Below, one piece after another: positions 746 through 53,951 of a DNA stretch of 64,000 nt. Below the pieces are notes generated by a model. The model made no database searches and was not told the origin of the DNA. It was given only the letters and a program-made list of their open reading frames with translations. A program made the position numbers and the translations under genes. Numbering within the stretch: the stretch's first letter is position 1; each line of letters starts with the position of its first letter. This stretch comes from Macrotrachela quadricornifera (Eukaryota > Rotifera > Eurotatoria > Philodinida > Philodinidae). The DNA lies in the NCBI GenBank assembly GCA_022393335.1, contig JAJEKB010021269.1, positions 315,358 through 379,357 of the forward strand, in the 5' to 3' direction.

Positions 746-2659
746 ATTGAACAATTTTGTGTAGAGAAAAAGATTTCAGAAGAAGTAGTAGCAAATGAAC
801 ATTTCCGACAAAGAAATGTATGCTCTTGTCATTTCATCTTCAAAGTCATCAGTTTCTATTAATTGTTTATTTATCTGTAGACTCAACATAAAAATGCATC
901 AAAACAACAATCATTTTTAACAGATGAACTGTATGCAGATGGAAAAAAGTATTGTCAAGTCTCTTAGATATTGAATGAAAGACAACGACGTCGTAAACGA
1001 CCTTAAACGGTTGCCGTTACAACTATCGTTTTCCTCCGGTTTTAAAGTATTATTACATCGAATTATAAAAGATATTTTAACGCGTGAATGCACATTATCA
1101 TATGAGACACTAGCAATACCTCTTGTTGATTTTTATCTTTTATTGCAAGGACACTATTTTGGAATATTAATCGAAGTTTTTCGGCTGTTATATACATGAA
1201 TCGAAAGTTCCTATTGAGACATTTTTAACGACATCACACATATTCTTTGAATCGATGTCTGTTTTATATTGTGTGATGATAAATACGTTCTCGATTATCA
1301 AACAATCGCGAAAAGTATACTTTTAGCATATTCTTCTTTCGTAGTATTTAGGTTGAGTTAATCATTACAAATCAATGCTATTATTATCTTTTCAAATATT
1401 CTCTTTATTTATTTATAATTAAATCTTTTTTACTTATTTTAGATCAAATAAAGTATCAAAAAAAATCGTAAGCATTAGATTTGTTTTAAATTTTAGATAG
1501 AATGAACTATTAAAAGAATAGTAAGTATTCTATTTATAAAAGCATTTTTTTTTCTTTAGCTAGATGCATCTTATTGTTACAAACAAGTGATAAGTATTAT
1601 TTTTATTTCCAAATATTTTGTTTTTTTATAACTTGCCGTTGTTCACCGGAAATGGCCTTAAACGGCGACGTTTCAAACGGCTTAAATGATGGAACTGTGT
1701 AGTGCCACCACCAGCCGACAATGATAAACTTAAAACATCATCTTCAGCCAACAAAAATTCTATCTCTCAAGATTCTGCGTATAGAACTCAATATACTCAT
1801 CAATCACTTTTGAGTCGTACAAGAAAGTCTGAATCGATGATATCCAACCTTTTTTGTATAGATTTATTTGCAATCAACACAAATAGAAATTTATTGAAAT
1901 AAATAAAATATGAACATAAGACTCAGAGACCGTATAGATCTCGAACCAATTCTTTACAGTCTGAGTGAAACAAAAACCGACTTATATGTAACACATTTTG
2001 GTATATTTTCGACTATAATAGATATTTCTATCAAAGGTTATAAGTTATTGTATCACAATAAAAATATCACAATTATTTCTATTTAAAAACACCTTCATCC
2101 CTCATCTTTATCACCGTATGATACTTTATGACAAATAATGATATATTCTAAAAGCTCCTGAAAATTTCTATCACTCTACTTATCTTTGTAATAATTTAAA
2201 TTCATACGGTATGTGAATAAACTGAGTACAGTGAAGAAAATATATTGCCCAAACACTCAAACCTTTGATTTGATCAGTGTTATCAAAATCAATGTTTGAA
2301 TTTTTTTTCTCACTATAAAATGATCTTTTTGCAAAGCAAATGGCACAGTCGGATAGAACGTTAAATTCTCTATTACTGTCTCCTACGCTGTCGCGAGAAA
2401 ATCTATTTATTGGTTGTCGATCATAATAGTTACGAACAAATAAGAAAAAGATGCGAACAGCGAAACATCAAATTACCGAATTTTCGTTCTTTTCTGTTTT
2501 TGTAATGAATCATTCATTGGAGAATAGGTACCTATTTATTTACCTTAAAAGAAAAGCTACAGGCGGTCTGTATTGCGATAGAACAAGAAAAAGAACGCAT
2601 TCGTATATTTTCGTTTATTTTCATTTACTGTTGGTCTTCGTACAGTACACATACACAGC
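746..2659. other. Intergenic, no clear gene
   Basis: AT-rich DNA. An open frame of 66 codons at 1702-1902 is Ser/Asn-rich, begins just after a possible acceptor (TGTAG) and could be a stray exon, but nothing supports it further. Two short segments sharing a CCTTAAACGG motif (near 1000 and 1653) flank about 650 bases and might be ends of a degraded repeat. The last 300 bases should hold the promoter of the reductase gene. Confidence 0.35.
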
Positions 2660-3843
2660 ATGCCGTTTGCACTAATTACACGTGAAAATAAGCAGCTTGT
2701 TATTGAAGAAATCGATGTAAGTAATCATGTTTTCTATCGAAGCATCGCAAAATACTTGATTTTTAAAAATTTTTTATAGCTTCCTAAATATGGACCTAAA
2801 GATCTGTTGATTAAAGTAACACATGCTGCACAGAATCCAACAGATTGGAAACATGTTCATTATGGATTGGCCAAACCAGGATCTATTGTTGGTTGTGATT
2901 TTGCTGGTGAAGTCGTCGAAGTAGGCAAAGAAGCTTCTGGTTAATATCTTAGTTGATTAATTCGAAAAAAAAGACTTTTACTATCATGATACTATTATTT
3001 AATTTAGGTAATTATACCAAAGGTGAACGTGTTGCTGGCTGTGTTCATGGTGGTCTCAATCCTGAACTCGGCATTCCTGGAGCCTTTTCCGAATATGTTG
3101 TTTTAGAAGCATCACTGGTTTTTCGATACCCATCGACGATGTCGCCAGAATCAGCCGCTACCATTCCTCTGGCTTCTGTCACGGCCGCTCTCGGTCTATT
3201 TCATGAGATGAACTTGCCTTTACCACCGACAAATTCTGGAATACCTTTTCTCGTTTGGGCGGGTAGTACAAGTGTTGGTCAATATGCTATTCAGTTAGCT
3301 AAGGCAGCCGGTTGTTTTGTTATTACTACTGCATCACCTGCTCGTCATCAATATTTAAAAGAACTTGGTGCTGATGTCTGTTTTGACTACAAGGATTCTA
3401 ATGTTGTTGCACAAATAAAAGAGGCAAGCAAAAACAATTTAGCTTATGCTATCGATTGCGTGTCAGAAAATGAATCAATTTCACAAGTATGTGCGGCACT
3501 GACAAATAACAGTTCACAAATAGTAAGTATTACACCAGGAACATCGGTTGACATGCCATCACATGTCAAAGAACGCCGAGTCTTAATGTACACCATTTTC
3601 GGACGCGAATTACACTTCTTTAACCAACTTATCAATGCTAAACCTGATGACAAGGAGTTTGCTGAAAAATTCTATAAGCTGCTTTCCGATGTCTTATTAC
3701 CTAAAGGTCTTTTAAAACCGAACAAAGTCACCAAGATTTCAGGTGGACTCAACGGAGTAGAAGATGGATTCAAACAGATGATGGAAAATAAGGTAGCAGC
3801 GGAAAAGTTGGTTTATACCTTAGCTGAAACCACCAAACAATAA
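2660..3843 (+). CDS. Medium-chain dehydrogenase/reductase, zinc-independent (enoyl-reductase/quinone-oxidoreductase-like)
   Basis: Three exons: 2660-2716, 2780-2939 and 3008-3843, separated by introns of only 63 and 68 bases with GT/AG ends. They join in frame to about 350 residues, the normal length for the MDR superfamily. The N-terminal half is a GroES-like fold with the conserved NPTDWK and GCDFAGEVVEVG segments. The Rossmann domain has an AGSTSVGQYAIQLAK-type dinucleotide loop (about residues 157-171). Zinc-ligand cysteines and the GHE motif of true alcohol dehydrogenases are absent, so an NADPH-dependent C=C or quinone reduction is likely. By memory of the family, the sequence resembles fungal trans-enoyl reductases of polyketide pathways more than animal zeta-crystallin. 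The start is the ATG that opens the MPFALIT exon. A poly(A) signal AATAAA lies at 3910. The substrate is unknown. Confidence 0.85.
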
Positions 3844-5550: not shown

Positions 5551-5946
5551 CTAGAAAAAATAATTGTATCGCCTATTAAAGAGAAAAAAAATATCACTGT
5601 TCAAGACTTTGTAAGTAGAAGAATTATTTAAACTGCATTGTTGTGCTGCTGTTTGATTATAACCACCATCCATATCATCATCTGGTCTAATAGAATTATC
5701 AATAAGTGTTGTTGATCTTTTGGTTTTTGATGTTGGTTGAAGATAAGCTTTTCTTTCTCTTGAAACAGGTTGTTTTATTGGTTTTTTAGTATATTTTTTT
5801 GTCTGGGGTATTGAAGTTAATTTAACTTTTTTTTTAGGAAATTTTAAAGATGTATCACTTAATGTATTTGTATTTGTTGAACTAAGATTTTTCTGGACAT
5901 TTCGACGAAAAATTGGACGTAAACTCGTTTCCGGATACGAAAGTTG
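5551..5946 (-). CDS. Possible exon, basic Thr/Lys-rich, unidentified
   Basis: On the minus strand 132 codons are open between a TGA (5947-5949) and a TAG (5551-5553). There is no ATG at its beginning, so it would have to be an internal or last exon. The translation is rich in Lys, Thr, Ser and Gln, includes a KFPKKKVKL run that looks like a nuclear-localisation or microtubule-binding basic patch, and later a DDDMDGGYNQTAAQQ segment. The third-position pattern and absence of stops in such AT-rich DNA suggest coding use, but I do not recognise a family. It might equally be the disordered tail of a gene whose other exons are lost. Confidence 0.3.
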   Translation of the reverse strand, partial: QLSYPETSLRPIFRRNVQKNLSSTNTNTLSDTSLKFPKKKVKLTSIPQTKKYTKKPIKQPVSRERKAYLQPTSKTKRSTTLIDNSIRPDDDMDGGYNQTAAQQCSLNNSSTYKVLNSDIFFLFNRRYNYFF

Positions 5947-6327
5947 TCAATGAATCAACCTGTTCTAACGTGATGATTCAAGATATGATTTTATCGATTG
6001 AGTGGGCCGAACCAAAAATTACTGTTTATTTATTAGCGATACGGCCCTAAAGAGACTGAATATTGTCTAGTACCTTGAGGTTATGTTAAGTCAATCTTCG
6101 CTCACACTAGAAGAATAGATCAGAAGCGTTGCCATCATGCGATCGCACATGATAGTAGAATACTATCATATCAACTATTAGAAATATAAGATTCCTTGGT
6201 CGGTACCTAGGAGAACTCAACCTGATTTTTCAACAACATTCATATCGGTTCTTTCATAACATTATCCATAGAAAATGATTCTCAAAATTCAAAAAAAATT
6301 TATCAGAAATAAACAATTATTTATCAA

Positions 6328-6832
6328 CTAGCGGTAGTACCCGGCGTTGCTCGGGAAATCTCCATGCTGAAAACTTAGTATGTCCGAAAACGACAGAAGA
6401 CATATAGAGGGCTTGTTTGTGACCTTTTCATCTATTATTACTGCATGTCTCCCCGTGCGTACACTTACGATCATTCTTAAATCGGATAATTCAGCAAATA
6501 GTATGCAGCGTGAGTGTCTTTCACTTAACTCATGCCTATTGCCAAATTTTATACTGACATCCAATGCAAAAAAACAGTGACAGTAAGAGGTGGATATTCC
6601 AATAATGACGACACATGCTCTGAAGTTTCTGAAAGATACGTAAAAACTGAAACATATCATAGCTTGTGTGAAATTTCACTCCAATTCTTCCGCCGGTTAT
6701 CCTAACCTCCTCTCGATCCTCCTCAGGACCCAAGAGTATATTATGAAAAACTTTGCACCGCTAGCTCGTGCAGTGTCCGAATGTATAAAAAACGGAAAAA
6801 AGACACAATTCTTTCTTTTTATATATATATTA
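6328..6832 (+). repeat. Dispersed repeat copy 1 (CCCGGCGTTGCTCGGG type)
   Basis: The copy begins with a short GC-rich hairpin sequence (around 6338-6356, CCCGGCGTTGCTCGGG) that stands out in AT-rich DNA. It ends with GTGTCCGAATG followed by an AT tract of repeated TA. I recall similar headers and tails in interspersed repeats of several invertebrates, but cannot assign the transposon class. Short open frames inside are not convincing genes. Confidence 0.5.
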
Positions 6833-7079
6833 TGAGTTATGAGAAATGCAATTTTATCTCACTTGTTGCCTTCTTCATTAGATGGATATTTTCATTCATA
6901 TAATTGTTCTTCATTTTACACATCCTGCCAGTCTTTTTCGAGTATCCTAAAATGTCCTGTGTACAATGGCAAAAAGCGTAGATTTTTATATATTTTCCTT
7001 CTTAAATTATTGAAGAAACAATCATATACACAAATAACCTGAAAAAGACACTTACTATAGTAAATCTAACAATAGGAGG

Positions 7080-42714: not shown

Positions 42715-43207
42715 TAGGGATGTATCAGTGTCGGTATACTGACCACTGATGAAACCGAGANNNNNNNNNNNNNNNNNNNNNNNNNNNNNNNNNNNNNNNN
42801 NNNNNNNNNNNNNNNNNNNNNNNNNNNNNNNNNNNNNNNNNNNNNNNNNNNNNNNNNNNNNNNNNNNNNNNNNNNNNNNNNNNNNNNNNNNNNNNNNNNN
42901 NNNNNNNNNNNNNNNNNNNNNNNNNNNNNNNNNNNNNNNNNNNNNNNNNNNNNNNNNNNNNNNNNNNNNNNNNNNNNNNNNNNNNNNNNNNNNNNNNNNN
43001 NNNNNNNNNNNNNNNNNNNNNNNNNNNNNNNNNNNNNNNNNNNNNNNNNNNNNNNNNNNNNNNNNNNNNNNNNNNNNNNNNNNNNNNNNNNNNNNNNNNN
43101 NNNNNNNNNNNNNNNNNNNNNNNNNNNNNNNNNNNNNNNNNNNNNNNNNNNNNNNNNNNNGTCAGTGTCAGTATTTCGGTGCATACACCGACACTGATAC
43201 ATCCCTA
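42715..43207. mobile_element. hAT-like element with 8-bp target duplication, interior missing
   Basis: The ends are perfect inverted repeats over 21 bases (TAGGGATGTATCAGTGTCGGT and complement). They are flanked by the same 8 bases, TATTAAAA (42707-42714 and 43208-43215). An 8-bp duplication and TAGGG ends fit the hAT superfamily. Only 46 and 47 bases of the ends are sequenced; the middle is a run of N. Whether it encodes a transposase cannot be seen; the stated gap length would only allow a non-autonomous copy, if that length is real. Confidence 0.75.
42761..43160. other. Assembly gap, 400 N
   Basis: Exactly 400 undetermined bases. The gap falls inside the inverted-repeat element, where hairpins or multiple copies often break assemblies. 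The true length may differ. Confidence 0.98.
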
Positions 43208-52333: not shown

Positions 52334-53951
52334 CTATTTCTTCCTACAATTTGTCTTTCGGTTTCTTTTTGGTATCAGTAATACATTCCCGATTACTTGC
52401 AATGTTCTTTTTTTTAGTCGATAATATTGAGGTGACTCTTGCCAATCATAATTTTTAAACAAGTTTTTTAATTCATGATTATTAGTAATCAGACGAATAT
52501 GCCGAATATTTTTCATAATTTCGATAAAATTAATTAATATATCAGGAAAAACTGACATATAATAGGAACATTTACTTTCAGAAATTAAAGAAACTTGATT
52601 CGTATCGATAATAAGATATTCAATTGTGGTATTTTCCTTACATTCTATTTTTTCAGATTGGCCATAAAATACTGCCGGAGAACGAATTTTGAGTTGTTTG
52701 ATTGGACTTTGAAGTCGACAAATAATATTTCCTAACAGATAGAAACTAATTTCATCGTCATACACAAGGAAAAGACGTTTCAATTTTGGAAAATATTTTT
52801 CAAATTCATTAATTAGTTCTATACGTCGAAGATTAAGAAGGGTAAGAGAAGTAACATCAGTAAAAATGGCTAAAGATGATAAATCCATTTCTGGCCATTG
52901 TTTAATTGCTTTGAGACGTAATGAAACAATTTGTTTAGGATTAATCATCTGATGAATTATTTTGATAAATGTATCACTAGGTTCAGATAGATGTAATTTA
53001 GATTTATATCTAAGTAATAATGGGAGAATCTCGAAAGAAAATGCTGTAATTGCATCGTTAAATGATAGATATTCAGCAATTTCAAGAATAATATTCCAAC
53101 AGATACCAGTTTTAGTGATGAATTTAGACGACTAAAATGAAATTAATAATATAATAGATGTTAATTTCTATAAACTATGTTTTTAGAAGATAAATTACAA
53201 ACTAAACAATAATTACTTACTAAAGTTTGTATATTTTTATTACATTTTTCTTTGAAATTAGTCAGTTCCTTTAATAATGAATCACAACGAATTTTTTCTG
53301 ATGTTTGTACCAATGTATCAGCCTCTAGTAATGAATAAAATTCATAATCTGAAGTTACTAAATAATTTTGTTCTTCTAGAACTCGTGGCATGATACCAAT
53401 AAGCATGGGACATTGTTTAATAAAATATATATTGATAAGTGGAAAACCAAATATCTGTTTCCAAGTTTCCATGAACCTGAATAGAAAATAAAATTTTTCT
53501 ATATGATTAAATATATATGTTGTTTCAAAATAATTTAATAATTAATAGATCATTAAATTTCTTTACCTGTTTCGATCTAACTCACATGTGATATCACATG
53601 GCCAAACAACATAATTTTTAGATAGATATTCAATAATTTCATTTGAACAGAATACATTGCTCAATAAATTCTTATCATGATGAATACAAACGAGTAATGG
53701 ACGATACTAAAATAAAATCGATTTATGTGTTTATATTAGAATAGATTTGAACAAATTTATTTAATTACGACAGAATTGAATGCTTTTTGACAAGCTTCTT
53801 GAAGAGAACCCATAAAAAATATTGGACAAACATTGTAATATTGTTTTAAACATTCGTCAAACGATTTTATATGTTTAACTTCATTTGAATACTCTTTGAT
53901 ACCTTTGAAATAACCAAAGAATTCATACATCTCTTCTTCATATAAAAACAA
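52334..53951 (-). CDS. Fusion of a FAF1-like UAS domain with an F-box/LRR-like region
   Basis: Four exons on the minus strand: about 53951-53769, 53706-53567, 53476-53221 and 53131-52334, each bounded by good GT/AG sites and joining in frame to about 458 residues. Exons 1-3 match the UAS domain of FAF1: FDECLKQYYNVCPIFFMGSL, QEACQKAF, RPLLVCIHHDKNLLSNVFCS, EIIEYLSKNYVVWPCDIT, then FPLINIYFI and MLIGIMPRV. FAF1-type UAS domains bind long-chain unsaturated fatty acids and multimerise. Exon 4 instead of a UBX domain encodes an F-box-like segment (CWNIILEIAEYLSFNDAITAFS) and leucine-rich units (TSLTLLNLRRIELI, FPKLKRLFLV). The UBA/UBL part of FAF1 is absent. The true start is uncertain: no ATG opens exon 1, only a possible acceptor just upstream or an internal Met. 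Alternatively these are two abutting genes. Confidence 0.65.

Follow-up and report, generated by a model that had tools for sequence, protein, structure and literature searches.

Known from p97 adaptors, UAS domains have a role of their own that is little understood. The window analyzed here, a stretch of 64,000 nucleotides from Macrotrachela quadricornifera, encodes a protein that has a FAF1-type thioredoxin-like UAS domain in common with FAF1, Caspar, FAF2 (UBXD8), and UBXN7, whereas no UBX or UBA domain was found in its family and an LRR-like domain follows the UAS domain instead. In FBXL-type proteins, such as SKP2, FBXL17, TIR1, and COI1, short helices precede an LRR-like solenoid, and the same is predicted for the window protein, but its F-box sequence falls below the Pfam cut-off, its LRR-like units are irregular, and a UAS domain stands in front. 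According to PMC10080908, the RING ligases RNF111, RNF165, and TOPORS are docking partners of the UBXN7 UAS domain, the UAS domains of FAF1 and FAF2 do not bind RNF111, and the FAF1/FAF2 UAS has been reported with unsaturated fatty acid (Kim et al. 2013, as cited there). No fusion of UAS to an F-box/LRR-like region was found in the literature surveyed by titles and abstract openings, with most subscription papers lying outside this survey, and a term search of PMC5916493 gave no mention of F-box, UAS, or Pfam. The initial annotation had stated that no described protein with this order was known to it; this holds for the surveyed literature, but many such proteins are present in databases under generic names.

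The gene lies on the minus strand and consists of four exons. Exon 1 (53769..53930) encodes the N-terminal part of the UAS domain, with an ATG at 53930-53928 and an uncertain 5′ limit: its open frame extends to 53960, an alternative acceptor ends at 53903, and the region 53903-53760 is aligned by tblastn with P0002, a relative from the protein databases. The first coding base may be that of the ATG at 53930 or may follow the acceptor ending at 53903, together with an upstream exon; no convincing first exon was found upstream of 53960. Intron 1 (53707..53768; 62 bases) has the donor GTAATT and is followed by exon 2 (53567..53706), encoding the UAS core, intron 2 (53477..53566; 90 bases; GTAAAG...TTCAG), and exon 3 (53221..53476), encoding the end of the UAS domain and a helix after it. 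The fusion junction is intron 3 (53132..53220; 89 bases; GTAAGT...TTTTAG; phase 0), beyond which exon 4 (52334..53131) encodes the C-terminal domain of 265 codons plus a stop. All three introns are GT-AG, and the four exons join in frame into a reading of 461 residues that is open throughout; the exon 4 frame stayed open in none of 2000 mononucleotide shuffles. Thus, the in-frame junctions and good splice sites described in the initial annotation were found, except that the intron 1 donor is unlike that of all nine paralogues in which it was located. Elsewhere in the window, exactly 400 N at 42761-43160 mark an assembly gap.

A Pfam search of the spliced protein matched the FAF1-type UAS profile PF21021 (E=8.3e-19; 68.2 bits against a cut-off of 27) at 53440..53849 on the minus strand, across exons 1-3 (residues 38-123 of the 461-residue reading), which bears out the proposed FAF1-type UAS and excludes the absence of such a hit. 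The closest solved relative by sequence is the human FAF1 UAS chain 2ec4 (9.3e-15). With the family profile A2, FAF1 chains were retrieved from the solved structures at 3.6e-30 and 8.5e-30; the third and fourth matches, a BLUF-domain protein (0.006) and Numb (3.1), were treated as chance. FAF1 UAS also ranked first (3.8e-5) in a Foldseek search with the related protein P0003. As had been proposed, the UAS domain is followed by the C-terminal exon and not by UBX: with E values up to 1 allowed, neither the spliced protein nor exon 4 gave a Pfam UBX match, and UBX is absent from the 19 Pfam families matched by the 28 members of the alignment A1. Pfam scans detected no UBA in these 28 members or in the spliced protein, which may begin further upstream than read here, and the precomputed Pfam lists of the relatives contain neither UBX nor UBA. 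None of 10 UBX matches in the M. quadricornifera genome was located on the contig of the window (C4615).

A protein search retrieved 17 homologues, and all 12 that name an organism are from Rotaria or Adineta. Used as a query, the UAS part of P0002 gave 29 proteins (itself included), all from Rotaria or Adineta, and a C-terminal-exon profile gave 15, of which all nine naming an organism are from the same two genera. From 39 proteins gathered, 28 members were aligned as A1. The initial annotation had suggested looking for the same fusion in other bdelloids, and both parts are co-linear in 15 of these 28 relatives (at least 174 residues of the UAS part and at least 230 of the C-terminal part), which belong to Rotaria sp. 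Silwood1 and Silwood2, R. sordida, R. socialis, R. magnacalcarata, Adineta ricciae, A. steineri, and A. vaga. Over most of its length, the window protein shares 48% identity with P0002 and 45% with P0003. These two and P0008, P0021, P0023, P0026, P0027, and P0034-P0038 belong to the same family and have the same part order as the window protein; they carry automatic names only, and their Pfam lists give UAS but nothing for the C-terminal part. Examples of database names are "UAS domain-containing protein" and "unnamed protein product". Among the other gene models, P0004 (A. steineri) has an F-box and LRRs, then UAS and the same C-terminal part, and may represent either a longer fusion or two genes merged in annotation. 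The R. sordida models P0020, P0024, and P0025 have a DEAD-helicase-like part in front of the UAS domain and are probably merged gene models.

The M. quadricornifera assembly (450 Mb; 5695 contigs) contains 50 matches to the C-terminal exon. Among the best 38, 37 are free of internal stops, and 37 are preceded on their own strand by a UAS exon within 4.5 kb, 34 of them within 1.3 kb; the only one lacking it, on contig C4193, is also the one with stops. For all 50 matches, an upstream UAS exon was found in 41, within 1 kb in 28. The UAS profile gave 75 exon-level matches, which a 400-base rule merged into 69 clusters, a count not equal to that of genes, and a good part of these matches belong to other architectures. 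In a survey of 23 copies, which included the window and kept near-identical pairs, the intron 3 acceptor AG directly precedes the same codon in all 23. An in-frame GT donor directly follows the UAS-ending motif, in phase 0, in 22 of the 23, with introns of 52-139 bases; in five of the 22 (L057 and L061-L064), which carry a variant of the motif, the donor place was judged by eye. The remaining copy, L066:8883, has no such donor within 220 bases. In a tree of UAS exon 2, the F-box class groups as one clade (24 of 24 sequences; support, 0.80), although deeper branching is unreliable in this tree, which contains 41 sequences, each about 50 residues long. One cluster of six C-terminal-exon matches lies at about 1.797-1.956 Mb of contig C4635, with one further off at 1.153 Mb, and UAS exons are numerous there, including doubled sets (L025, L026, L036, and L065).

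The layout is conserved both among copies in the M. quadricornifera genome and across at least two bdelloid genera, and the locus is one member of a large, fast-changing bdelloid multigene family with the same layout. These data confirm the fusion of UAS to an F-box/LRR-like region at the window locus as a genuine observation, and the order, UAS followed by F-box-like and LRR-like parts, is a real new domain architecture. The alternative that a UAS remnant and a neighboring F-box/LRR gene were wrongly joined has on its side the database gene models P0024, P0025, and P0032, which end at or just inside intron 3. The metagenome protein P0006 reads through the junction intron in frame, which marks the place of the junction independently. 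Two stand-alone genes are a poor alternative because the exon 3 frame, if unspliced at 53221, reaches a stop at 53163-53161, and exon 4 has its first ATG only downstream of the F-box-like segment. Contradicted by the co-linear relatives in two genera, the conserved junction, and the upstream UAS exons, two adjacent unfused genes are extremely improbable and were rejected.

Exon 4 comprises, all on the minus strand, an F-box-like segment (53006..53110; exon residues 8-42), an LRR-like region of alternating strands and helices (52394..52996; residues 46-246), and a diverged tail (52334..52393), whose final residues are unlike those of the family and in which residues 250-265 have pLDDT below 50. 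The predicted model consists of helices and an LRR-like solenoid. In a Foldseek search with exon 4 alone, TIR1 (twice), COI1, SKP2, FBXL17, and the F-box protein 6brp occupied six of the top eight places, and a seventh was from an NLRP14-KDM2A-SKP1 entry; the best E value was 1.1e-3, TM-scores were at most 0.5, and unrelated enzymes such as ornithine decarboxylase appeared from rank 9. With P0003, the FAF1 UAS was followed by 4i6j (8.4e-5; titled as a ubiquitin ligase-substrate complex), which we take to be FBXL3, and then by COI1 and SKP2, and the alignments of those F-box chains that begin there start at residues 205-213 of P0003. Conservation is higher in the F-box-like segment and the LRR strands than in the stretches between strands.

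The F-box sequence in exon 4 is divergent and weak, and lies below the Pfam cut-off. Searched alone, exon 4 matched nothing in Pfam, even with E values up to 1 allowed. Of the 28 proteins in A1, 5 matched the Pfam F-box (best E, 0.031), as did 4 of the 13 in A3 (best E, 0.0014), and those scored sit below the cut-off; the best match observed had 18.9 bits against a cut-off of 20.5. The matches of L002, L057, L028, and P0041 share the same segment and register, and the best F-box stretches of P0010 and P0017 fall on a segment other than the expected one. A profile made from 16 F-box segments of the M. quadricornifera genome and tested on 37 family members placed its best stretch on the expected segment in 26, elsewhere in 9, and nowhere in 2; 4 of the 37 members, compared with 9 of 1850 shuffles, had at least 5 bits, and none of the 37 reached 8 bits, whereas 3 shuffles did. 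For this profile, hhalign gave P 0.005 with a probability of only 7%. No F-box chain was found among the solved structures (PDB) by sequence with profile A2. The ordinary F-box repertoire of this genome is very large: PF00646 gave 1533 first-look candidates, and all 150 that were scored exceeded the cut-off, none of them on the window's contig.

The F-box-like segment and leucine-rich units ascribed to this exon in the initial annotation are supported by the predicted fold and by weak profile matches, mostly on the expected segment, but not by any Pfam F-box match above the cut-off. The VIA-align result, in which LRRC8 and NLRC4 ranked above F-box chains and generic LRR proteins were favored, with a caveat on repeats, counts against a putative F-box/LRR domain, as do the low probability from hhalign and the profile scores of single members. 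These points are consistent with a real fusion whose C-terminal part forms an LRR-like scaffold, capped by helices that do not engage SKP1, so that the protein would act as a UAS-LRR receptor or adaptor outside SCF; the leading LP of the F-box, which is LC, LS, or similar in most A3 rows, also fits this alternative. It is at odds with the predominance of F-box/LRR proteins among the top Foldseek matches, with the start of the F-box chains' alignments on P0003, and with the shared segment and register of the four matches mentioned above. We consider the scaffold alternative rather unlikely, although the hhalign probability and the VIA-align caveat led us to place more weight on it and slightly less on the explanation we favor, namely that the locus is a family member combining UAS, F-box-like, and LRR-like parts into an SCF-type ligase component, which we regard as moderately probable.

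The window copy itself may be decaying. Among 11 paralogous places searched for exon 1, it was located in 9, each with a GT donor lying 12 bases downstream of the window's. At this position, the window has AT instead of GT, preceded by a stop codon, so that only the upstream GTAATT keeps the frame. Exon 2 of the window lacks five residues that all but one of the nine relatives compared over this part possess, and about 30 residues at the C-terminus are replaced by unlike ones. At other sites in the genome, long matches to the window copy have just 64-69% identity. Together with the unclear 5′ exon, the lost donor, the replaced tail, and these low identities would fit a decaying pseudogene in the window within a family whose architecture is real, which is compatible with the favored explanation for the family; we judge this possible, at somewhat below even chances. 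In contrast, the donor 12 bases upstream preserves the frame, all four exons are open, and P0009 shares a four-residue gap with the window copy. The dN/dS of window exon 4 against 19 others (about 0.42-0.82) is also inside the range of the 14 closest pairs, although NG86 estimates are weak evidence here given the window dS of 0.66-1.4 and the strong A+T bias. Among these 14 pairs, nine had exon 4 values of 0.24-0.59, one pair was identical, and the other four had 0.84, 0.88, and twice 1.17, the last three on few changes. Such fast nonsynonymous change among paralogues fits weak constraint or diversification.

UAS domains are joined to other parts elsewhere in this genome. In 5 of 10 ORFs scanned, the UAS end is followed by a PARP catalytic domain in one open frame, both at E of at most 0.01: L058 (2272-3063), L068 (1605-2183), L056 (2638-3201), and L055 (2849-3469) on the minus strand and L050 (2401-3000) on the plus strand. 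The PARP profile PF00644 matched at up to 4.9e-12 and exceeded its cut-off in L058 and L068. Like the window protein, these ORFs combine a FAF1-type UAS with a further domain, but that C-terminal domain is PARP, and tblastn found no F-box/LRR-like exon in those loci. In L051 and L053, UAS is followed by a stretch resembling UBX by eye; for L051, Pfam gave no UBX there. L051 carries two UAS exon sets in tandem (1531-3250 and 5719-7000; G000:C515), the UBX-like stretch coming after the second and the first ending in a motif like the UAS end of the F-box family, and may be a single FAF1-like gene bearing two UAS domains. On the basis of the UAS-PARP ORFs and the UBX-like stretches, we tentatively propose, with more doubt than confidence, that the bdelloid UAS is a portable input module placed, within one genome, before a UBX-like p97 adaptor part, in dozens of F-box/LRR-like proteins, and before PARP catalytic domains. 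Akin to immune receptor families, such expanded, quickly diverging families might turn one sensed signal (a lipid, ubiquitin-pathway, or pathogen-derived ligand) into ubiquitylation or ADP-ribosylation.

For the favored explanation, a plausible mechanism can be outlined. A duplicated part of a FAF1-like UAS gene would have lost its UBX-bearing part and gained the C-terminal exon. The helical segment would bind SKP1 and thereby CUL1, the variable LRR-like surface would select the substrate, and the UAS domain would serve as an input or docking module for an unsaturated fatty acid or a ubiquitin-pathway protein, handing its ligand to an SCF-type ligase rather than to p97. The docking of UAS on RING ligases in PMC10080908 was counted as a precedent for a tie between UAS and ligases. 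Because the family UAS is of the FAF1 type, we slightly favor a lipid input over docking to a RING ligase. The SCF function is what we infer for the UAS-F-box-like/LRR protein, and the F-box/LRR and ligase interpretation of the initial annotation is, overall, partly supported.

The family is thus made of known parts in a new order and is expanded in one animal group, with its proteins already in databases under generic names. With UAS kept and ligase-like (elsewhere PARP) parts in the place of UBX, the UAS ligand could be tested apart from p97, and the family would constitute a class of candidate substrate receptors expanded in bdelloids.
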